Below, in pieces: positions 1,700 through 41,431 of a DNA stretch of 64,000 nucleotides. The translations under genes were made by a program, and so were the position numbers. This DNA comes from Anaerolineae bacterium (GTDB taxonomy: Bacteria; Chloroflexota; Anaerolineae; Aggregatilineales; Phototrophicaceae): positions 1 through 64,000 of the forward strand of contig JAGWBD010000014.1 of the NCBI GenBank assembly GCA_021296065.1, written 5' to 3'. Under the pieces are notes generated by a model. That model had not been told where the DNA came from, made no database searches, and worked only from the letters and a program-made list of their open reading frames with translations. Numbering within the stretch: the first letter of the stretch is position 1; each line of letters opens with the position of its first letter.

Positions 1700-1874
1700 A
1701 AAGGGAGCTGGTCCCCTGTCGGGGCACTGCTGACGGAAATATGCACGTTGCATTTCCGGGTTGACTGGCCGCTGCAGGAGTCTGCCAGGCCGCCAGGCGC
1801 TACTGGTACCAAATGGCACGTTGCAACCTGCGCTACAATTTACTTCTACTCACCCGAGCGCGGAGTGAAGTGAC

Positions 1875-2282
1875 ATGACCATTGACGTCACCTTTATGCT
1901 GAATGCGCACTTCGGCCTGTTCCTGCTGCTGGTCGTCGTGACGATTATCGCGCTGCTGGTCACGCTGCGCAGCCTGCTGCGCAGTGGCGCCGGAGCACTC
2001 AACCGCGTCGTCATGCTGATCTACCGCATCGTGTTCATCCTGCAGTGGCTGGCAGGTCTGGCCCTGCTGATCATGCTGTCAGCCACCAGTGGCTGGCCGC
2101 TGTATCGCCTTGAGCACGCCCTGACGATGACCGTTGCGGTGATCCTGACGCACCTCTTCGGCGGGCGCCGCAACTCGCGGCCGCTGACCAGCCTGATCGT
2201 GCTGCTGGTCACCTCGGCGCTGGTGGCCGTCGCCTACCTGCGTCTGGAGGAGGCCAGGGCCGGCCTCGGCGCCGTCACCTGA
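1875..2282 (+). CDS. Small integral membrane protein, hypothetical
   Basis: 135 aa with about four hydrophobic segments. Confidence 0.6.
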   Translation: MTIDVTFMLNAHFGLFLLLVVVTIIALLVTLRSLLRSGAGALNRVVMLIYRIVFILQWLAGLALLIMLSATSGWPLYRLEHALTMTVAVILTHLFGGRRNSRPLTSLIVLLVTSALVAVAYLRLEEARAGLGAVT

Positions 2283-2312
2283 GCCCGTCGCCGCGCGGCT
2301 GCGCGCCGGGGT

Positions 2313-3071
2313 CTACGCCGGCTTGCGCGCGATGAGCAGCGTGGTGTAGTTGAAGGCCCAGGGCGCCAGGCGCGTCAGCGCCCCGCCCAGGGCCTCGGCC
2401 AGCGGGCTGCTGCGAAAGTAACCCGGCGCGCGGAAGGGGCCGCCCAGGCCCCAAAGCGTGAAGTCGTGGCTGGTGGGCCGCAGTTCACAGAGCTCAAAAC
2501 CGGCTTCCGTCACCGTCCCGACCAGCGCGCGTCGGCCCCAGGCGCTTTCGTAGAAGTCATCGTGGGTCAGCGCGTCGCGGCCCTGCAGGCGCCGCCGGAG
2601 CACAACCAGACGCTGCACCAGGTTGGGGAAGGGGATGGTCAACACCAGGATGCCACCCGGCCGCAGCACGCGCCGGGCCTCCGCCAGGGCCGGGCCCATG
2701 CCCTGCTCGAAGTGTTCCAGCACGCCAAAAGAGAGGTAGGCGCCGATGGAGGCGTCGGCGCAGGGGATGGCGTGAATGTCGCCTGTCAGCAGCGGCAGGC
2801 CGGGCGTGTGGCGCCGCGCGGCCTGCAGGGCGCTCTCCACGTAGTCCATACCGATGACCTTGTCATGGCCCGCCGCGCGCAGCGCGATGACCGGGCCGCC
2901 GAGGCCGCTGCCGGCTTCGAGGACGGGCGCGTCACGCGGCAGCCAGGGCAGGTAGGCCTGCATGATTGCCTGGCTGCGCGGGTAGTACATGGTGGCCAGT
3001 TCCTCCGCGACCGTGGCGCCGTGCCACATGTCGCTCCAGCCCTGGCGCGTGCTTTCGTAGAGGTCGTTCAT
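2313..3071 (-). CDS. Class I SAM-dependent methyltransferase
   Basis: VLEAGSGLGGPVIALRAAG and EARRVLRPGGILVLTIPFPN motifs. Start MNDLYEST at 3071 overlaps the stop of the upstream gene. Confidence 0.8.
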   Translation of the reverse strand: MNDLYESTRQGWSDMWHGATVAEELATMYYPRSQAIMQAYLPWLPRDAPVLEAGSGLGGPVIALRAAGHDKVIGMDYVESALQAARRHTPGLPLLTGDIHAIPCADASIGAYLSFGVLEHFEQGMGPALAEARRVLRPGGILVLTIPFPNLVQRLVVLRRRLQGRDALTHDDFYESAWGRRALVGTVTEAGFELCELRPTSHDFTLWGLGGPFRAPGYFRSSPLAEALGGALTRLAPWAFNYTTLLIARKPA

Positions 3072-3868
3072 GCGTCCGGTGCCTCTTTCCCTGGCTTGCG
3101 GCCCGCCAGCTGGACCTGGCGGATGAGGAAGCTGGCCTGCGGGCTGCCGAGGTCGCGCGGGGCGAACCACAGCGCGGCCGGCGTGGGCGCTTCACGCAGC
3201 AGGGCGTCCAGCCGGGCGATGGCCGCGTCGTCATTGCCCTGACGCCGCGCCCAGTCCGGCAGGTTATGACGCTTGACGACCGGCGCGCCCTGTTCAACCT
3301 TCAGGCCGGCGCCCGCAAAGAGGGCCCGCCAGCCCGTCTCGCTGTAAGCGCGATTGTGCGAGGGATCGCGGCGGCGCTCGAAGTCGTCGATCCAGCGGGC
3401 GGAGGGTCGGTGTACCGGCAGGGCCTGGTCCTGCAGCAACAGCAGCCCGCCCGGTTTCAGCACCCGCGCGCTCTCCTGGAAGAAGCGGGGTACGTCCGGG
3501 AAGTGGTGCGCGGCGATGCGGCAGGTGACCAGCTCAAAGCTGCCGTCGGCGAAAGGCAGGTCGTCGGCCGCGGCCTCGCGGTAGCTCACGTTGTGGATGC
3601 CCAGCCCGCGAATGTGCGCTTCCGCCTGTTCCAGCATGGCGGGCGTCAGATCGCTGGCGACCACGCTGGCGACGAAGGGCGCGAAGGTCAGGGCGGTGTG
3701 GCCGCCGCCGGTGGCGATATCGAGGACGCGCCAGTGTGGCTCGGGCTGCGCCATGGCGAGCAGGTGCCCAAGGTCCGGCCCGCTGGCGTGGTTTTTGCTG
3801 CTTACGTAGGCGGCGGCAAAGCGGCCGAAGCGCTCGCGCGCGAGGGACGGGGAATCGCTGGCGGGCAT
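3068..3868 (-). CDS. UbiE-like class I SAM-dependent methyltransferase
   Basis: VLDIATGGGHTALTFAP and SARVLKPGGLLLLQD. Start MPASDSPS at 3868. 4-nt overlap with the next gene. Confidence 0.8.
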   Translation of the reverse strand: MPASDSPSLARERFGRFAAAYVSSKNHASGPDLGHLLAMAQPEPHWRVLDIATGGGHTALTFAPFVASVVASDLTPAMLEQAEAHIRGLGIHNVSYREAAADDLPFADGSFELVTCRIAAHHFPDVPRFFQESARVLKPGGLLLLQDQALPVHRPSARWIDDFERRRDPSHNRAYSETGWRALFAGAGLKVEQGAPVVKRHNLPDWARRQGNDDAAIARLDALLREAPTPAALWFAPRDLGSPQASFLIRQVQLAGRKPGKEAPDA

Positions 3869-24183: not shown

Positions 24184-25557
24184 ATGAATCACAAACTGAG
24201 TCGTCGAGATATGCTGAAGGGCACGGCCGCCGGCGCGGTCGGGCTGGTGGCGGGTCTGACGCCTGCCATGGCGCCTGCGCAGGATGCCATCCAGATCCGC
24301 TGGCATCAGAACGCGGAACGCTGGACGCCGGTCGTCAACAATTACAACGAGATCGCCGATACGCCGGTGGAGATTGAGTTCCTCAACATCACCGGCATCG
24401 ACCACGAGGAAACGGCCTCGAAGATCCTCAATCTGCTGGCCGCCGGTCAGCCGCTGGACGCGGGCAGGGCCGCGACCGAGGCCACGGTGCTTTACGCCGG
24501 CCAGGGCGTCTCCGCGTCGCTCACCGACCGCGTGAAGGATGCCGCCGACGAGTTGGCCGAATACTTCTCGGACATGGCGCCAATCCTGCCCGAGACCATG
24601 CTCTGGGAAGGCGACATCTACCAGCTGCCGGATGGTTGCAACGCGCCCAACATGTACTTCAATCTGAACGTGCTGGAACTGGCGGGCCTGGAAGTGCCGC
24701 CGGCCGACTGGACCAGGGACGACTTCCACGAGTACGCCGTGGCCACCACCAACGCGGGTGGCCAGGAGACCTTCGGCTACGCCTGGACGAACCGTCTCTG
24801 GGGCAGCTGGGGTCCGGTCAACGACAGCAACTTCCTGACCGAGGAGCGCGCGCCGGGCGGTGAGTGGTTCTGGGAGACCTTCTATTCGGACAACGACACG
24901 GTATCGCATCGCGGCGGCGGTTTCCGCTGGCCAGAGCCCAACGCCAACCACCCCAACACGGTCGAGGCGCTGGAGTACGTCGTCTCGCTGACCGCCGACG
25001 GGCTGGCGCCGGGCATTGAGATGGGCGGCGGTTCCTCGCTGCAGGGTCTCTATGTCTCTGACAAACTGGCGATGACGCCCGCGGGCGGTTTCTGGGCCGG
25101 CGGTCTGATCAACGCCGGCATGGAGAAGGGCCACTTCGACGTGCAATTCTGGCCGCAGTGGAAATCGCAGCGGCACCAGCTGGGCGTCGGCGGCAACTGG
25201 ATCTTCACCGGCAGCCCCAACCCCGATGCCATGTGGAACCTGCTCAAGTTCTCCATCAAGCGGGATCAGATGCTCTCACTTAAGGATCGCTACCGGCCCC
25301 TGATGCGGACCACGCCGGTGCGTCGTTCGATGGCCAACGCGGAAGCCTACGAGCCCAGCGGCCCGGCCAACTGGGAGGTCTTCTACGACACGCTGGATCG
25401 CCCGGACACGGGCCCGATCCCGGCGCCGCCGGAAGCCAACGCCGTCACCAACATTCACACCCGTTTCACCGGTCTGGCCGAGATGTCGCCGCAGGATGCC
25501 ATGGACCAGGCGCAGGCGGAGTTGGTCGCGCTCTTCGCCCGCACCCGCGGCGGATAG
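24184..25557 (+). CDS. ABC transporter extracellular sugar-binding protein (SBP3)
   Basis: LSRRDMLKGTAAGAVGLVAGL leader; paralogous to SBP1/2/4. Lacks three residues (WYF) at SWGP[WYF]VND. Confidence 0.85.
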   Translation: MNHKLSRRDMLKGTAAGAVGLVAGLTPAMAPAQDAIQIRWHQNAERWTPVVNNYNEIADTPVEIEFLNITGIDHEETASKILNLLAAGQPLDAGRAATEATVLYAGQGVSASLTDRVKDAADELAEYFSDMAPILPETMLWEGDIYQLPDGCNAPNMYFNLNVLELAGLEVPPADWTRDDFHEYAVATTNAGGQETFGYAWTNRLWGSWGPVNDSNFLTEERAPGGEWFWETFYSDNDTVSHRGGGFRWPEPNANHPNTVEALEYVVSLTADGLAPGIEMGGGSSLQGLYVSDKLAMTPAGGFWAGGLINAGMEKGHFDVQFWPQWKSQRHQLGVGGNWIFTGSPNPDAMWNLLKFSIKRDQMLSLKDRYRPLMRTTPVRRSMANAEAYEPSGPANWEVFYDTLDRPDTGPIPAPPEANAVTNIHTRFTGLAEMSPQDAMDQAQAELVALFARTRGG

Positions 25558-25897: not shown

Positions 25898-27271
25898 ATG
25901 ACTCACAAACTGAGCCGCCGGGACATGCTGAAGGGCACGGCCGCCGGTGCGGTCGGGCTGGTGGCGGGTCTGACGCCTGCCATGGTGCCCGCGCAGGATG
26001 CCATCCAGATCCGCTGGTCGCAGAACGAGGAGCGCTGGACGCCGGTCGTCGACAATTACAACGACATCGCTGATACGCCGCTGGAAATCGAATTTCTCAG
26101 CATCACCGGCATCGACCACGAGGAAGTGGCTTCCAAGATCCTTTCGCTGCTGGCCGCCGGTCAGCCGCTGGACGCGGGCTATGCCGCGACCGAGGCCACG
26201 GTGCTGTATGCTGGTCAGGGCGTCGCCGCGTCGCTCACCGATCGCGTGAAGGACTCCGCCGACGAGTTGGCCGAATACTTTTCGGACATGGCGCCGATTC
26301 TGCCTGAGGTCATGATGTGGGAGGGCGACCTCTACCAGTTGCCCGATGGCTGCAACGCGCCCAACATGTACTTCAACCTGAACGTGCTGGAACTGGCGGG
26401 CCTGGAAGTGCCGGGGCCGGACTGGACCAAGGACGACTTCCACGAGTACGCCGTGGCCACCACCAACGCGGGTGGCCAGGAGACTTTCGGCTACGCCTGG
26501 ACGAACCGTCTCTGGGGCAGCTGGGGCCCGTGGTACTTCGTCAACGACAGCAACTTCCTCACCGAGGAACGCGCGCCGGGTGGCGAATGGCTGTGGGAGA
26601 CCTTCTATGCGGACAACGACACCGTGTCGCATCGCGGCGGCGGCTGGCGCTGGCCGGAGCCCAGTGCCAACCACCCCAACACGGTCGAGGCGCTGGAATA
26701 CGTCACCTCGCTGGTGGCCGATGGCATCAGCCCGGGCATCGAGATGGGCGGCGGTTCCTCGCTGCAGGGCCTCTACGTCACCGACAAGCTGGCCATGACG
26801 CCCGCGGGCGGTTTCTGGGCCGGCGGCCTGATCAACGCCGGCATGGAAAAGGGCACCTTCGACGTGCAGTTCTGGCCGCAGTGGAAATCGCAGCGGCACC
26901 AGCTGGGCGTCGGCGGCAACTGGATCTTCAGCGGCAGCCCCAACCCGGATGCCATGTGGGACCTGCTCAAATTCTCCGTCAAGCGGGACCAGATGCTCAG
27001 CCTCAAGGACCGTTACCGGCCCTTGATGAGGACCACGCCGGTGCGTCGTTCGATGGCCAGCGACGAGTCCTACGAGCCCAGCGGCCCGGCCAACTGGCAT
27101 GTCTTCTACGACACGCTGGATCGTCCGGACACGGGCCCGATCCCGGCGCCGCCGGAAGCCAACGCCGTCACCAACATTCACACCCGTTTCACCGGTCTGG
27201 CCGCGCCGCAGGATGCCATGGACCAGGCGCAGGCGGAACTGGTCACGCTCTTCGCCCGCACGCGCGGGTAA
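25898..27271 (+). CDS. ABC transporter extracellular sugar-binding protein (SBP4)
   Basis: LSRRDMLKGTAAGAVGLVAGL leader; closest by eye to SBP3. Confidence 0.85.
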   Translation: MTHKLSRRDMLKGTAAGAVGLVAGLTPAMVPAQDAIQIRWSQNEERWTPVVDNYNDIADTPLEIEFLSITGIDHEEVASKILSLLAAGQPLDAGYAATEATVLYAGQGVAASLTDRVKDSADELAEYFSDMAPILPEVMMWEGDLYQLPDGCNAPNMYFNLNVLELAGLEVPGPDWTKDDFHEYAVATTNAGGQETFGYAWTNRLWGSWGPWYFVNDSNFLTEERAPGGEWLWETFYADNDTVSHRGGGWRWPEPSANHPNTVEALEYVTSLVADGISPGIEMGGGSSLQGLYVTDKLAMTPAGGFWAGGLINAGMEKGTFDVQFWPQWKSQRHQLGVGGNWIFSGSPNPDAMWDLLKFSVKRDQMLSLKDRYRPLMRTTPVRRSMASDESYEPSGPANWHVFYDTLDRPDTGPIPAPPEANAVTNIHTRFTGLAAPQDAMDQAQAELVTLFARTRG

Positions 27272-30846: not shown

Positions 30847-32232
30847 ATGAGTATCTTTCACCGGCCGGCGGATGGCATCGTCGGCGATGTCATCCCCTTT
30901 TACTGGCAAGGCCAGTACCACGCCTTCTACCTGAAGGCGCCCCTGCCGCCACGGCGCGAGGGCGCTTTCCACAGCCCCTGGGCGCATTTGGTCTCAAGCG
31001 ACCTGGCGCACTGGGAGGAGTGGCCGGAGGCCATCGGCCCTGGCGGCCCTGGCGACCCCGACGAGATCAGTTGCTTTACCGGCTCGGTCATCGAGAAGGA
31101 CGGCCTGTTTTACATGTTCTATACGGGCTTTGCCGGCCGGGACAAGCCGCAGACCGTCTGCCTGGCCACCAGCGAGGACCTGCGCAGCTGGCACAAGGAC
31201 CCGCGCAACCCGCTGATCGTGGCCGACCCGCGCTGGTACGAGGCGATTGACTGGCGCGACCCCTTTCCCTTCTGGAACGAGGAGGCCGGCGAGTACTGGA
31301 TGTTGCTGGCCGCGCGCGAGCTTGAAGGGCCGGACAATCGTCGCGGCTGCCTCGCGCTGATGACCTCGCCCGACCTGCTGGAATGGACGGTGCAGCCGCC
31401 CTTCTGGGCGCCGCGCCTGTATTACACGCACGAATGCCCGGACCTGTTCCGCCACAATGGCCAGTGGGTGCTGGTCTATTCCACCTTCAGCGAACGCAAC
31501 ATCACCCATTTCCGCGTCAGTGATTCGCTGGCCGGGCCCTGGCTGGCGCCGCACAATGACGGCTTCGACGGACGCGCCTACTACGCTGCCAAGACCGCCG
31601 GTGATGGCCGGCGGCGCTTCGTCTTCGCCTGGGACCCGACGCGCGAGGGCGACCAGGACAGCGGCGGCTGGGAATGGGGCGGTGACATGGTCGTGCACGA
31701 GGTCACTGACGACCTGGGCGTGAAGCCGGTGCCGGCCCTGCTGGAGCGCTTCAACGAGCCGCGCGCAACGGGCCTTGAGCCCCTTTGCGGCACCTGGGAT
31801 ACGGTCAATGGCGCGCACCGCTCGGCCTTCGACGACGGCTATTCCGCCGCAAGGCTGGGCGAGTTGCCGCATACGGCCTCGCTGGGCGCCAGCATCCGTT
31901 GCGACCCGCAGACGCGTTCCTGCGGCCTGTTGCTACGCGTGGACGAGGCGCTGGAGAAGTACTATCAGGTGCGCTGGGAGCCGCAGGCCGGGCGCATCGT
32001 GTTTGATCGCTGGCCGCGGCCTGGCGACGAGCCCTTCATGCTGGAGCGGCCGCTAAACGACTGCGAGCAACTGGACCTGCGCGTGCTGGTCGAGGGCAGC
32101 GTGGTGGTCGTTTACGCCAACGATGAAGTGGCGCTGACCTGCCGCATGTACGACCATGTGACGGGCGCCTGGGGCCTCTTCGTCAACGAGGGCCAGGCCA
32201 CCTTCAGCAATTTGAGTTGCGCGGCCGGTTGA
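30847..32232 (+). CDS. Clan GH-J glycoside hydrolase (GH32/GH43-like)
   Basis: WRDPFPFWNEEAGEYWMLLAAR (RDP) and YTHECPDLFRHNGQWVLVYS (ECP), C-terminal beta-sandwich-like segment. Confidence 0.75.
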   Translation: MSIFHRPADGIVGDVIPFYWQGQYHAFYLKAPLPPRREGAFHSPWAHLVSSDLAHWEEWPEAIGPGGPGDPDEISCFTGSVIEKDGLFYMFYTGFAGRDKPQTVCLATSEDLRSWHKDPRNPLIVADPRWYEAIDWRDPFPFWNEEAGEYWMLLAARELEGPDNRRGCLALMTSPDLLEWTVQPPFWAPRLYYTHECPDLFRHNGQWVLVYSTFSERNITHFRVSDSLAGPWLAPHNDGFDGRAYYAAKTAGDGRRRFVFAWDPTREGDQDSGGWEWGGDMVVHEVTDDLGVKPVPALLERFNEPRATGLEPLCGTWDTVNGAHRSAFDDGYSAARLGELPHTASLGASIRCDPQTRSCGLLLRVDEALEKYYQVRWEPQAGRIVFDRWPRPGDEPFMLERPLNDCEQLDLRVLVEGSVVVVYANDEVALTCRMYDHVTGAWGLFVNEGQATFSNLSCAAG

Positions 32233-32275: not shown

Positions 32276-33976
32276 TTGACCTTGGCGACCTCAAGTTTCA
32301 CAAGAGACTCGATGCGCATCATGCAGGGCCAAAAGGGCGAGGGCCTGAAAGGCAAGGGCACGCCGCGCGTGATCTTTCAGCCTGAAACCAGCCACGCCCT
32401 GCGCGACGGCATCAGTATGCTGGCCGGCGCCATCCGTCCCACGCTGGGGCCCTCCTCCGGCACGGTGGCCATTAACTACATCACGAAGGAAAAGGGCCGG
32501 CCGGAGCTTTTGGACAGCGGCGGCGTGATTGCGCGGCGCATCATCGAACTGGAAGATGCCAGCGAGGACATGGGCGCCATGCTGCTGCGCTCCATGGTCT
32601 GCCGCCAGCATGACGAGATCGGCGACGGCACGGCCACGGCCACGGTGCTCTTCGAGGCGATTTACAAGGCCGGCCTGCGCTACGTCGCCGCCGGCGGCAA
32701 CGGCCAGCGTTTGCGCCATCACCTGGAGCAATTGCTGCCGCTGGTGCTTGCAGAACTGGAGCGCCAGACCTACGCCATCGACAGCATCGAAGACTATGCG
32801 CGCATCGCCGAATCGCTTTCACATGACCCGCCCATGGCCGAGATGATGGGCGAAATCTTCGACGTCATCGGCGAATACGGCCAGCTGGACATTCGCAAGG
32901 ACAACAGCCGCGGCTTGCGTCGCGACTATGTCGAGGGCATTTATTTCAACAGCGGCCTGCTTTCGCGCGTGCTGGTCAACGAGCAGGTCGTCAAAAGGAT
33001 CGAGTTACTCGACACGAACATTTTCATCTGTGATTTCAGCCTTGAGGACCCGCGCGAGCTCTTCCCGGTGATCGAATGCGCCGTGGACGCGAAGCTCAAG
33101 TCGCTGGTAATTTTTGCGCGCAACATGAACGAGGCCGCCCTGTCGCTGGTGCATGCGGCCAACCGGCCCGACCGCTTCCAGGCGCTGGCCCTCAAAATCC
33201 CGGACCCCAACCCGGACTTGCGCAACGCCGCCATCGAGGACCTTGCGGTGCTCACCGGCACGACCCCCTTGCTCAAGGTGATGGGGCACACGATGGAGTC
33301 GGTGACTCCGGCCCACTTCGGCCGTACGCGGCGCTTCTGGGCCACGTCGCATCAGTTTGGCCTGAACGGGCCGCGCGGCAATCCGCGGGCAATGCGCCAG
33401 CACATCATGCGCCTGGAGGAGCAGTTCCGGGTCGAGGAGGACAAGGACCAGCGCGACCAGCTGGAGGCGCGCATCGGCAAGCTGCTGGGCGGCTCGGCCA
33501 CCCTGTTTGTCGGTGGCTCCACCGAACCGGAGATCGAGATTCGCAAGAATCTGGCGGAACGCGCGGCCGCGTCGGTGCGCATGGCGCTGCGCGAGGGCGT
33601 GCTGCCCGGTTGCGGTCTGGCGCTGCTGAACGTGCGGCCGGTGCTGGAAGAACGTCTGGCCACGGCGACGGAAGCCGACGAACGGGCGGCCATCGGCATT
33701 TTGCTGGATGCCCTGCAAACGCCGACGCGCACGATCTACGAGAACGCGGGCTATGACGCCAGCGAGGTGATGGCCAAACTGTCCTTTGCCCCGCCCGGTT
33801 CCGCCTTTGACGTGCTGGGCGGCAAGGTGGTGGACCTGCAGGACGCCGGCATCCTCGACTGCGCCACGGTGGTCAAACGCTCCACCCGCAACGCCATCGC
33901 CACCGCCGCGCTGGCGCTGACCATCGACGTGCTGGTACATCTGCGCGAGCCGGAAATGATTGGAGTACCGACCTGA
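32276..33976 (+). CDS. Divergent GroEL/Cpn60-family chaperonin
   Basis: TLGPSSGTVAI, GGVIARRIIELEDASEDMGAMLL, IGDGTATATVLFEAIYKAG, VGGSTEPEIE..REGVLPGCGLALL. Confidence 0.85.
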   Translation: MTLATSSFTRDSMRIMQGQKGEGLKGKGTPRVIFQPETSHALRDGISMLAGAIRPTLGPSSGTVAINYITKEKGRPELLDSGGVIARRIIELEDASEDMGAMLLRSMVCRQHDEIGDGTATATVLFEAIYKAGLRYVAAGGNGQRLRHHLEQLLPLVLAELERQTYAIDSIEDYARIAESLSHDPPMAEMMGEIFDVIGEYGQLDIRKDNSRGLRRDYVEGIYFNSGLLSRVLVNEQVVKRIELLDTNIFICDFSLEDPRELFPVIECAVDAKLKSLVIFARNMNEAALSLVHAANRPDRFQALALKIPDPNPDLRNAAIEDLAVLTGTTPLLKVMGHTMESVTPAHFGRTRRFWATSHQFGLNGPRGNPRAMRQHIMRLEEQFRVEEDKDQRDQLEARIGKLLGGSATLFVGGSTEPEIEIRKNLAERAAASVRMALREGVLPGCGLALLNVRPVLEERLATATEADERAAIGILLDALQTPTRTIYENAGYDASEVMAKLSFAPPGSAFDVLGGKVVDLQDAGILDCATVVKRSTRNAIATAALALTIDVLVHLREPEMIGVPT

Positions 33977-35043: not shown

Positions 35044-36590
35044 TTGATGACCGGTCCGCGGCAATTCCCGGATACCCTTGAAGCCCAACTTAAGGCCCTG
35101 GAGAGCGACGAGGAAGTGCAGGGCTATATCGCCGGGCGCGAGGCGCTGGCGGATGATCCCGCGCGCCCGCTTTATCATTTCTCGCCGCCGCTTCACTTCA
35201 TGAACGACCCCAACGGCCTCTGCCAGTGGCAGGGGCGCTACCATCTCTTCTTCCAGTACCTGCCGGGCGGCGAGTTGCTGACTCCGGACCGCAAGGGGGG
35301 CGTCTGTTGGGGCCATGCCGTCAGTGACGATCTGGTCAACTGGCGCGACATGCCGATCGCGCTCTACCCGGCCGTCGAGCGCGACTGCTTCAGCGGCCAG
35401 ACCCTCGTTGAAGACGACCGCGTGATCGCCATCTACCACGGCACGCGCGCCGGCAACGGCATCGCCACGGCCGACGATCCGCTGCTGATCAACTGGCAAA
35501 TGCACCCGGACAACCCGGTCATCCCGGGCGACCCGCAGGGGCTCGGCGGCGGCGGCGGCGACGAGGTGGTCGCGGAAAATGGCAAGTACCGCGTCTTCGA
35601 CCCCTGCATCTGGAAGGAAGATGACGGTTACTATTCGCTTTCCGGCACCTACATGGACGGCGACTTTGGCGGCACGCGCAGCGTCGACGCCCTGGGCGTG
35701 GACCATTTGTTTTATTCGGAGGACCTCGGCAACTGGACCTACCTCGGGCCGCTGGTGAGCGATGACCAGCTGGCCGAGCCGGGCGAGGACATGGCCGTGC
35801 CCAACTTCTGTTCAGCCACAAGCGCGCCGGCCGCTACTATATCGGCAGCTACGATTACGAGACGCACCGCTTTACGCCCGAGACGCACGGGCGCATGAAC
35901 TACGGCCCCTGGACGGTCGGCAGCCTGCACGCGCCCAGCGCCACTATCGACGACGCGGGCCGCTACCTCGGCATCTTCAACATCAAGGAAGGCCGCGATT
36001 TACGCGGCTGGAACGACATCATGTCGCTGCCGCGGCACTACTGGCTGGCGGATGACAACACGCTGCGCATGGCGCCGGTGCCCGAACTGGAGGGCCAGCG
36101 CTTCGATGGCGTGCAGGTACCGGCGCAGGAGATCGCGGCCAACAGCGAGCAACTGCTGGAGAAGGTCAGCGGCCAGGCGATCGAGATCGAGGCGATCATC
36201 GAGCCGGGTGACGCGCGCGAGGTCGGGCTGACGGTGTTGCGCTCGCCGGACGGCGCGGAGCAGACGCACATCTCCTTTTACACGTCGCTGCATGGCCGCC
36301 GCGCCAACCCGGGCTGGCTGCAGATCGACACGTCGCAGTCCTCGCTGGCCGATGACGTGCATGGCCGCCCGCCGGAGCAGGGGCCGCTGGCCATCGCGGC
36401 GGACGAGCCGCTGCACTTACGCATCTTCATCGACCGCAGCATCATCGAGGTCTTCGCCAACGACAAACAGTGCCTGACCCTGCGCGCGGCGTAAGTATCT
36501 TCGCGCGCGGGGGCGCGGCGCAGTTGCGCTCGCTCAGCGCCTGGCAGATGCGCAGCGTCTGGCCGGAACTGAAACAATTCGAGGGCCGCT
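35044..36590 (+). pseudogene. GH32-like gene copy A, frameshifted at two sites
   Basis: MNDPNGLCQWQGRYHLF and VFDPCIWKEDDGYYSLSG in frame 1; C-terminal half (MNYGPWTVGSLHAPSATIDD..) in frame 0. Breaks near 35810 and 36488. Confidence 0.75.
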
Positions 36591-36623
36591 GATCGCAGCG
36601 CTCCCAAAAACAGGAGACAGGTT

Positions 36624-38191
36624 ATGACGCCTGGCGCACAGTATCCAACTGCGTTGGAAGACCAACTCAGGGCCCTGGAGAGCGACGGGGAGGTGCAGGG
36701 TTATACCGCCGCGCGCGAGGCGCTGGCGGCGGACCCCGCGCGCCCGCTCTACCACCTCTCGCCGCCCTGCAACCTGATGAACGACCCCAACGGCCTCTGC
36801 CAGTGGCAGGGGCTCTACCATCTCTTCTACCAGTTCGTGCCGCACGGCAGCGTCGAACCCGGGGAGCGTGAACCCGTGTGCTGGGGCCACGCGGTCAGTG
36901 AAGACCTGGTCAACTGGCGCGATTTGCCGATCGCGCTGCATCCGGGCGTCGAGCGCGACTGTTACAGCGGCCAGACCCTGGTTGAGGACGACCGGGTCAT
37001 CGCCATGTATCACGGCACCTACGCCGGCAACGGAATCGCCACGGCCTCCGACCCGCTGCTGCTCAACTGGCAAATGCACCCCGACAACCCGGTCATTCCC
37101 GGCGAACTGCGCGAACGCCCTGGCGGCGGTCGCGTCGACGTGGTGGGCGGCAATGGCGCGTATCGCATCTTCGACCCCTGCATCTGGAAAGAGGACGACG
37201 GCTACTATGCCATCTCGGGCACCTTCATGGACGGCGATTTTGGCGGCACGCGCACCGTCGATGCGCTGGGCGTGGACCATCTGTTTCACTCGAAGGACCT
37301 GGGGGACTGGACCTACCTCGGGCCGCTGGTGAGCGATGACCAGCTGGCCGAGCCGGGCGAGGACATGGCCGTGCCCAACTTCTGTGTTGCTGCTCTTCAG
37401 CCACAAACGCGCCGGCCGCTACTACATCGGTACTTATGACCAGCAGACGCACCGCTTCACGCCGGAGACGCACGGGCGCATGAACTACGGTCCCATCAGG
37501 ATCGGCAGCCTGCACGCGCCCTCGGGGACCATCGACGACACGGGCCGCTACCTCGGCATCTTCAACGTCAAGGAGGGGCGCGACCGGCGCGGCTGGAACG
37601 ACATCATGTCGCTGCCGCGCCATTACTGGCTGGCGGATGACAACACCCTGCGCATGGCGCCGGTGCCCGAGCTGGAAGGTCAGCGCTTCGACGGCGTGCA
37701 GGTGCCGGCGCAGGAGATCGCGGCAAACAGCGAGCAGCTGCTGGAGAAGGTCAGCGGCCAGGCGATCGAGATCGAGGCCGTCATCGAGCCGGGTGACGCG
37801 CGCGAGGTCGGTTTGACGGTGTTGCGCTCGCCGGACGGGGCGGAGCAAACGCGAATCTCCTTCTACGCGTCGCTGCAGGACCGTCGCGCCAACCCCGGCT
37901 GGCTGCAGATCGACACGTCGCAGTCCTCGCTGGCCGATGACGTGCATGGCCGGCCGCCGGAGCAGGGGCCGCTGGCCATCGCAGCGGACGAGGCGCTGCA
38001 CTTACGCATCTTCATCGACCGCAGCATCATCGAGGTCTTCGCCAACGACAAACAGTGCCTGACCCTGCGCGCCGGGCGGACAGCGCGGGCGTGAGTATCT
38101 TCGCGCGCGGCGGCGCGGCGCAATTGCGCTCGCTCAGCGCCTGGCAGATGCGCAGCGTCTGGCCGGAGCTGAAAGCGTTTGAGGGCCGTTG
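36624..38191 (+). pseudogene. GH32-like gene copy B, frameshifted at two sites
   Basis: N-terminal part in ORF 36624..37439, C-terminal part in ORF 37336..38094. Breaks near 37385-37400 and 38070. Confidence 0.75.
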
Positions 38192-38223
38192 AACCCGATG
38201 AACGACCTGGGAGCAGGGCCCTG

Positions 38224-39809
38224 ATGCCGCCTGAAGCGCATTTTCCCCTGACGCTGGAAGGGCAGTTACAGGCCCTGGCGGGGAACGGGGAAGTGCAGGG
38301 CTACACCGCCGCGCGCCAGCGCCTGGCCGGTGACCCGGCGCGCCCGCTCTATCACTTCTCGCCGCCCGGCAAGGAAATGAACGACCCCAACGGCCTGTGC
38401 CAGTGGCAGGGGCGCTACCATCTCTTCTACCAGTACCAACCGGTCAGGCAGGAGCCGCTTGGCTCCCCGCGGCAACACCGCGGCATCAGCTGGGGTCACG
38501 CGGTCAGTGAAGACCTGGTCAACTGGCGCGACCTGCCGATCGCGCTGCGTCCGGCCTGGGGCGAACTCGGCTGCTACAGCGGCCAGACCCTGGTCGATGA
38601 GGACCGGGTGATCGCCATCTACCACGCGCCCTTCGCCGGCAACGCGCTGGCCCTCGCCAGCGACCCGCTGCTGCTCAACTGGGAACGCCCGCCCTACAAC
38701 CCCGCCATCCCCGGCCACACCGACCCCGACAACGTCGGCGTCTGTCACGGTCCCGACGGGGACTACCTCCTCTTCGATCCCTGCATCTGGAAAGAGGAAG
38801 ACGGCTACTATTCACTCTCCGGCACCTACACGCAGGGCTCGCGCGGCAACACGCGCAGCGTCGATGCTCTGGGCGTCGTCCACATCTTCCATTCGCCGGA
38901 CCTGAAGGAATGGCAGTGGCTGGGGCCGATGGTGTCCGACGAGGTGCTGGCCGAGCCGGGCGAGGACATGGCCGTGCCCAACTTCTGGCCGATCAGCGAC
39001 GACAAACACATGTTGCTGCTCTTCGCTATTACATCGGCAGTTATGACCGGGAGACGCATCGCTTCACGCCCGAGACGCACGGGCGCATGAATTTCGGCCC
39101 CTGGACCCTCGGCAGCCTGCACGCGCCCTCGGCCACCATCGACGACTCGGGCCGCTACCTCGGCATCTTCAACGTCAAGGAAGCGCGCGATTCCCGCGAC
39201 TGGAACGACATCATGTCGCTGCCGCGGCACTACTGGCTGGCGGATGACAACACGCTGCGCATGGCGCCGGTTCCTGAACTGGAAGGTCAGCGCTTCAATG
39301 AGCTGCAGTTGCCGGCGCAGGAGATCGCGGCCAACAGCGAGCAGCTGCTGGAGAAGGTCAGCGGCCAGGCGATCGAGATTGAGGCCGTTATCGAGCCGGG
39401 CGAGGCGCGCGAGTTCGGCTTGACGGTGTTGCGCTCGCCGGACGGCGCGGAGCAGACTCGCATCTCCTTTTACGCGTCGCTGCAGGACCGCCACAATAAC
39501 CCGGGCTGGCTGCAGATCGACAGCTCGCAGTCCTCGCTGGCCGACGACGTGCATGGCCGCCCGCCGGAGCAGGGGCCGCTGGCGCTTGCGGCGGACGAGG
39601 CGCTGCATCTGCGCATCTTCGTCGACCGCAGCATCATCGAGGTCTTCGCCAACGAGCGGCAGTGCCTGACGCTGCGGGCCTACCCCTCGCGGGCGGACAG
39701 CGCGGGCGTGAGCCTCTTCGCGCGCGGCGGCGCGGCGCAGCTGCGTTCGCTCAGCGCCTGGCAGATGCGCAGCGTCTGGCCGGAACTGAAACAGTTTGAG
39801 GGCCGCTGA
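38224..39809 (+). pseudogene. GH32-like gene copy C, frameshifted once
   Basis: N-terminal part in ORF 38179..39090 (ATG 38224), C-terminal part in ORF 38910..39809 with a normal end. Break near 39020. Confidence 0.75.
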
Positions 39810-39838
39810 GCGCGGCGTTTGGCAGGGAGGAAAGAGCC

Positions 39839-41431
39839 ATGGACGGAGCGCGACAGTTCCCGCATACACTGGAAGCGCAACTAAAGGCCCTGGAGCGGGA
39901 TGAAGAGGTGCGGGGCTATACCATCGCGCGCGAGCGTCTGGCGGCTGACCCGGCGCGCCCGCTCTATCATCTGTCGGCGCCCGGCAAGTACATGAACGAC
40001 CCCAACGGTCTGTGCCAGTGGCAGGGGCGCTACCATCTCTTCTACCAGTACCAGCCGGCCGGGCTGGAGCCGGGCGGCTTTCAGCCGCAGTATCGCGGCA
40101 TCAGTTGGGGCCACGCGGTCAGCGACGACCTGGTGAACTGGCGCGACCTGCCGATCGCGCTGCATCCGGCAGGGATCGAACCGGCCTGTTTCAGCGGCCA
40201 GACCCTGGTCGAGGACGAGCGGGTGATCGCCATGTACCATGCCCCCTTCGCCGGCAACGCACTGGCCCTCGCCAGCGATCCGCTGCTGCTCAACTGGGAA
40301 CGTCACCCGAACAACCCGGTCATCCCCGGCGAGACCGACCCCGACAACGTCGGCGACAGTTACAGCCCCGACGGTGAGTACCTCATCTTCGATCCCTGCA
40401 TCTGGAAAGAGGAAGACGGCTACTATGCGCTCTCCGGTGTCTATATGCAGGGCTCGCGCAGCGTCGACTGCCTCGGCGTCGCCCATATCTTCCATTCGAA
40501 GGACCTGTCGCAGTGGGAGTGGCTGGGGCCGATGGTGGCCGACGACGTGCTGGCCGAAGCGGGCGAGGACATGGCCGTGCCCAACTTCTGGCCGATCGGC
40601 AATGGCCGTCACCTGCTGCTGCTCTACAGCCACAAGCGCGCCGGTCGCTACTACATCGGCCGCTATGACCGGGCGACGCACCGCTTCACGCCGGAAACCC
40701 ACGGGCGCATGAACTACGGCCCCTGGACCATCGGCAGCCTGCACGCGCCCACGGCCACCATCGACGACCTGGGCCGCTACCTCGGCATCTTCAACGTCAA
40801 GGAAGGGCGCGAGCACCGCGACTGGAACGACGTGATGACTCTGGCGAGGCATTACTGGCTGGCGGATGACAACACGCTGCGCATGGCGCCGGTGCCTGAA
40901 CTGGAAGCGCTGCGTTTTGACGAACAGACGCGCGGGCCGCTGGAGATACCGGCCAATGAAGAGTTGCTGCTGGAAGGCATCGGCGGCCAGGCGATCGAAA
41001 TCGAGGCCGTGATCGACCCCGGCGACGCGCGGGAGTTCGGCCTCAACGTGCTGCGCTCGCCGGACGGGGCGGAGCAGACGCGCGTCTCCTGGTACCCCTG
41101 GCAGTTCGGTCGCCGCGCCAACCCCGGCTGGCTGCAGATCGACCCGGCACGCAGTTCGCTGGCGGCCGACGTGCATCCGCGCCCGCCGGAGACCGGGCCG
41201 CTGACTCTGGCGGATGGCGAGGCGCTGCACTTACGCATTTTCATCGACCGCAGCATCATCGAGGTCTTCGCCAACGACCGGCAATGCCTGACCCTGCGGG
41301 TCTACCCGGAGCGGGAGGACAGCCGCGGCATTTCGCTCTTTGCGCGCCGTCGGCCGGTACAACTGCGTTCCTTGAAGGTCTGGCAGATGCGCAGCGTCTG
41401 GCCGGAACTGAAGGGCCGCGAGGGACAGTAG
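39839..41431 (+). CDS. GH32-like glycoside hydrolase copy D, intact
   Basis: 530 aa single ORF: YMNDPNGLCQWQGRYHLFYQY, LIFDPCIWKEEDGYYALSG, GEDMAVPNFWPIGNGRHLLLLYSHKRAGRYYIG. Confidence 0.85.
   Translation: MDGARQFPHTLEAQLKALERDEEVRGYTIARERLAADPARPLYHLSAPGKYMNDPNGLCQWQGRYHLFYQYQPAGLEPGGFQPQYRGISWGHAVSDDLVNWRDLPIALHPAGIEPACFSGQTLVEDERVIAMYHAPFAGNALALASDPLLLNWERHPNNPVIPGETDPDNVGDSYSPDGEYLIFDPCIWKEEDGYYALSGVYMQGSRSVDCLGVAHIFHSKDLSQWEWLGPMVADDVLAEAGEDMAVPNFWPIGNGRHLLLLYSHKRAGRYYIGRYDRATHRFTPETHGRMNYGPWTIGSLHAPTATIDDLGRYLGIFNVKEGREHRDWNDVMTLARHYWLADDNTLRMAPVPELEALRFDEQTRGPLEIPANEELLLEGIGGQAIEIEAVIDPGDAREFGLNVLRSPDGAEQTRVSWYPWQFGRRANPGWLQIDPARSSLAADVHPRPPETGPLTLADGEALHLRIFIDRSIIEVFANDRQCLTLRVYPEREDSRGISLFARRRPVQLRSLKVWQMRSVWPELKGREGQ

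Follow-up and report, generated by a model that had tools for sequence, protein, structure and literature searches.

Seamless frameshift lesions in a tandem GH32 array of an Anaerolineae MAG: very probable artefacts of short-read assembly

Introduction

Three of four neighboring GH32 genes in an Anaerolineae genome are interrupted at one internal site by deletions of different sizes, which raises the question of whether the organism itself carries broken genes or whether the breaks arose in silico. The genes lie in a 64,000-nucleotide stretch of DNA, referred to here as the window (GCA_021296065.1, JAGWBD010000014.1, positions 1 to 64,000), that is part of contig 162 of a metagenome-assembled genome (MAG) of 178 contigs and 85% completeness. 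An earlier note on this DNA had put forward four causes: a deletion hotspot, selection for split proteins, strain-variable phase switching, and a systematic assembly error at paralog junctions.

Results and Discussion

The GH32 array and its lesions

The array occupies positions 35047-41431 and is flanked by genes for a BNR-repeat protein and a sulfatase. A chaperonin-family protein (PF00118) is encoded at 32276-33976, directly upstream of the BNR-repeat gene and the array, an order that is kept in both sister species considered below. Lesions were placed by aligning the four copies with one another and with the eight unbroken copies of the sister species:

35047..36590, + strand: GH32 copy A, two lesions, 34 nt missing between 35810 and 35811 and 25 nt missing between 36487 and 36488
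36624..38192, + strand: GH32 copy B, two lesions, 23 nt missing between 37384 and 37385 and 10 nt missing between 38072 and 38073
38224..39809, + strand: GH32 copy C, one lesion, 19 nt missing between 39022-39024 and 39025
39839..41431, + strand: GH32 copy D, intact, 530 amino acids

Copy D matched both Pfam domains of the family (PF00251, residues 44-351; PF08244, residues 354-516), while copies A-C matched one of these domains in each half, such that the GH32N propeller and GH32C sandwich were recognized in copy D and across the halves of the other three.

Read against intact copy D and the two sister species, the losses at the first site fall directly past the VPNF codons and amount to 34, 23 and 19 nt in A, B and C, as the earlier note had reported; the position of the copy C junction carries a 2-nt alignment ambiguity. 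The frame shifts that the note had deduced were likewise borne out, each of the three losses shifting the frame and leaving a half open on both sides. Its further statement that the halves stay open is correct on either side of site 1 and fails toward the C-terminus, where a second site, at one position common to A and B, has lost 25 nt after 36487 in A and 10 nt after 38072 in B and cuts both C-terminal halves before their proper end. Wherever two copies are paired at a lesion, the left end is the same and the right ends differ. The note had also placed the break between propeller blades 4 and 5. An AlphaFold2 model of copy D (mean pLDDT 86, pTM 0.90) places it instead at about residue 251, within a strand (residues 246-254) that opens blade 4, according to our own assignment of blades from strand order.

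Sister species and selection

Two MAGs from the same genus, RHO3_bin_8 (JAPPOB010000007.1) and COS1_bin_10 (JAPOVC010000016.1), carry a syntenic four-copy array in the same order, with a chaperonin-like gene, a BNR-repeat protein, four GH32 genes and a sulfatase. Nucleotide identity to the sister counterparts is 86-90% for copies A-C and 81-87% for D. The sister arrays differ in that all eight of their GH32 copies are full length, in contrast to the lesions in A-C here. Outside the array, comparison with both sisters showed the conserved genes of the window to be unbroken; generally poor sequence quality was rejected as a cause on the same comparison, the conserved single-copy genes of the window being intact. 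For the halves of A-C, dN/dS against their orthologs was 0.10-0.30, the range also found for copy D and for sister-sister pairs, and there were no stop codons in these halves, values that show them to be evolving as would be expected under ordinary purifying selection. With intact sisters, unbroken neighboring genes and no relaxation of selection, the lesions must have arisen very recently or else be spurious. In RHO3_bin_8, GH32 copies A and C have an exact 434-bp tract in common, a sign of recent gene conversion within that array.

A fixed distance into paralog-shared sequence

Each GH32 lesion lies 79 nt from the first base of a stretch shared exactly with a paralog. The blocks, taken from exact-repeat tables for site 1 and from these tables and the alignment for site 2, are as follows:

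35732..35810, + strand: 79-nt block of copy A, identical to 37306-37384 of copy B, site-1 lesion directly after
37306..37384, + strand: 79-nt block of copy B, identical to the copy A block, site-1 lesion directly after
36409..36487, + strand: 79-nt block of copy A, identical to 37994-38072 of copy B, site-2 lesion directly after
37994..38072, + strand: 79-nt block of copy B, identical to the copy A block, site-2 lesion directly after
38946..39024, + strand: 79 nt of copy C from the first base shared with A and B up to the lesion, 77-79 nt given the alignment ambiguity

The site-1 match between A and B is tabulated as 80 bp, made up of 79 plus a T that follows the junction by chance in both copies. 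No exact match between A and B is longer than these two of 79 bp, and in both copies each of them stops at a lesion site; the probability that two random junctions would fall at those match ends is about 0.006 per copy. The earlier suggestion that the lesions cluster non-randomly thus holds beyond chance, all four lesions of A and B being ends of their two longest shared stretches. Copy C is missing from the exact-match table because A and B are cut earlier. When the missing columns are counted as shared, the true A/B blocks would be about 109-124 bp long, and in the sisters the sequence common to the copies runs on through the stretch that is missing here. Lesions placed at random within the shared blocks coincided to 1 nt across four loci in a fraction of about 8e-6 of trials; when copy C was included, agreement was seen in 0 of two million trials.

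The same distance in two unrelated gene families

Apart from the A/B GH32 blocks, the only other exact repeat of about 79 bp in the window lies in a pair of neighboring solute-binding-protein-like (SBP-like) paralogs:

25402..25480, + strand: 79-nt block in a TAT-signal SBP-like paralog (24184-25557), identical to 27125-27203, with a 9-nt in-frame loss directly after (between 25480 and 25481)
27125..27203, + strand: 79-nt block in the neighboring SBP-like paralog (25898-27271), with a 15-nt in-frame loss directly after (between 27203 and 27204)

These genes adjoin ABC-transporter permease genes and their Pfam match is to the TAT signal only, so the solute-binding identity implied by the name is drawn from genomic context. 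The losses of 9 and 15 nt were read against two other paralogs and both sisters. As multiples of three they break no frame and escape a scan for broken frames; they are likely to be further assembly damage. One SBP-like paralog has another 9-nt in-frame gap, between 24816 and 24817, relative to three paralogs and both sisters; this gap does not follow the 79-nt rule, its left flank being unique.

A fourth 79-bp repeat was found on contig 149 of the same MAG, at positions 340-418 and 2526-2604 of the stretch examined, in two Uma2-family genes, one of which matched PF05685. Both genes are frame-broken directly past base 79, with 16 and 25 nt missing and the junctions near 30917 and 33103 of contig 149, and the two sister genomes have four unbroken orthologs. 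Retention of 79 nt was thus recorded at nine junctions in three gene families, and it is independent of both family and frame, with losses that break the frame in Uma2 and in-frame losses in the SBP-like genes (two of the eight lesions at paired 79-bp repeats). Read against the sisters, the junctions in all three families contained no simple repeats or homopolymers, and microhomology, judged by eye from the alignments, was limited to 0-2 nt.

Repeat lengths and traces of scaffolding across the MAG

Exact repeats of at least 50 bp were sought in 898 kb of the MAG, taken in stretches and amounting to about a third of the genome. Their lengths ran from 52 to 72 bp and then 79, 79, 79 and 80 (the last being 79 extended by a chance base). 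No repeat in these 898 kb exceeded 80 bp, and all four of the 79/80-bp repeats are followed in both copies by a deletion directly after base 79. Sister contigs, of which 80 kb and 60 kb were examined, hold exact repeats of 434, 483 and 99 bp, which indicates that the 79-80 ceiling is not a property of the genus. Runs of 6-229 Ns in other contigs of the MAG, with two short and fully masked records left out, indicate that the contigs were scaffolded. Contig ends overlapped by 78 nt in one case, in the larger contig set, and by 37 nt in another pair, among the first 40 contigs; the 78-nt overlap supports the proposed k without fixing its value.

Origin of the lesions

A de Bruijn graph yields broken contigs wherever a shared stretch is longer than k, and about k of the shared bases remain on every unique contig. 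We hold with high confidence, from the sequence comparisons above, that the lesions are artefacts of short-read de Bruijn-graph assembly at a working k of about 79; the 79 retained bases presumably correspond to k=79 if edges are counted or to k=80 if nodes are. Neighboring paralogs in this genus share near-identical stretches longer than k, the graph would fork inside such a stretch, and each contig would stop about 79 bases into the block. A scaffolder could then have linked the two contigs of each copy, left and right, with no Ns in between and with a variable part of the shared block omitted. Had it estimated the contig overlap and trimmed that many bases, the junctions would look as observed, constant on the left, variable on the right, and free of both Ns and microhomology. 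We infer that the assembler behaved in this way, the overlap-trimming step included. Most such joins resemble frameshift deletions because they fall in conserved coding sequence. Two points count against this explanation: the contig-end overlaps are 78 and 37 nt rather than 79, and the gap between 24816 and 24817 is off the rule.

True pseudogenisation, with independent deletions in A-C at a hotspot or a site prone to gene conversion, is very improbable. Lesions absent from both sister species could be recent losses, and the 434-bp tract demonstrates that tandem paralogs in the genus exchange sequence, but selection is not relaxed, stop codons are lacking, and the lesions, rather than being scattered, all end the longest shared blocks at a distance of 79 nt that recurs in two unrelated families. 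Conversion of a lesion from one copy to another would not be expected to produce the same left and different right ends, and the junctions have no direct repeats; a deletion hotspot acting by slippage was rejected on these junctions, at which only 0-2 nt are shared. We give even less credence to a mixed account in which some of the deletions are real, small deletions favor sites where gene conversion makes tandem paralogs identical, and conversion itself inactivates copies.

Strain-variable phase switching at the lesion sites, which might be suggested by the alteration of several paralogs at equivalent positions, is scarcely credible: the junctions offer no simple repeats or homopolymers and hence no substrate, and a fixed 79 nt that holds across unrelated families, for in-frame losses as well and for two Uma2 genes on a separate contig, is not the design of a switch. 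The least credible reading is selection for split GH32 proteins, in which the N- and C-terminal halves would be made separately and then associate. It is favored by halves that are open and under purifying selection, but the break within the first strand of blade 4 in the AlphaFold2 model is a poor place to divide the protein, site 2 deprives A and B of their C-terminal ends as well, and neither sister species has a split copy. Moreover, the 79-nt rule extends to Uma2 genes, whose frames are broken, and to SBP-like genes, which lose whole codons; two of the eight lesions at paired 79-bp repeats are in frame.

Among the causes listed in the earlier note, then, the 79-nt rule, its extension to two unrelated families, the repeat ceiling and the intact sisters single out the systematic assembly error at paralog junctions and speak against the hotspot, split proteins and phase switching. 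The deposited sequence does contain what the note observed; the organism itself almost certainly does not. From the sister genomes and the selection test we infer that A, B and C are probably intact genes in the organism.

The joins share with known repeat-boundary misjoins in short-read de Bruijn-graph (metagenome) assemblies the breaks at repeats longer than k, the retention of a fixed, k-like shared length and the loss of bases at the join, but they differ in being made without Ns and in mimicking clean frameshift deletions in tandem paralogs. Literature searches turned up papers of a general kind on the assembly of metagenomes and on errors in draft genomes (e.g., PMC8021871, PMC9179125, PMC4256071), and no account of this exact signature was seen among the results. 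The biology of the locus is ordinary, as the intact four-gene GH32 array of the sister species illustrates. Caution is suggested for scaffolded short-read MAGs, in which seamless joins can mimic clusters of frameshifts in tandem paralogs. Sequence alone suffices to expose such joins: each break can be checked for a constant, k-like distance from the start of the block that the paralogs share, and the exact repeats of the assembly for an upper limit at that same length.

GH32 family and catalytic motifs

The sequence profile matched the sucrose-6-phosphate hydrolase 7vco with E = 2e-85, and the genes share with this and another GH32 of known structure (beta-fructosidase, 1uyp/1w2t) the five-bladed propeller and beta-sandwich. 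They differ from these enzymes in two motifs, with FDP in place of RDP and Ala aligned to the EC Glu, in intact homologs as well. In the alignment, on which these motif assignments are based, NDPN is kept in this GH32 clade and a conserved GED lies three residues upstream of the Ala at the EC Glu position. The FDP/Ala pattern occurs in copy D (39839-41431) and in intact sister and most Poribacteria homologs, and because these homologs are intact it is not linked to the lesions. The clade, with FDP and with Ala at the position of the acid/base Glu, may represent a non-canonical GH32 group. Among Chloroflexota, a more distant GH32 homolog (60% identity; 1824-3341 of its record) contains a single in-frame stop codon.
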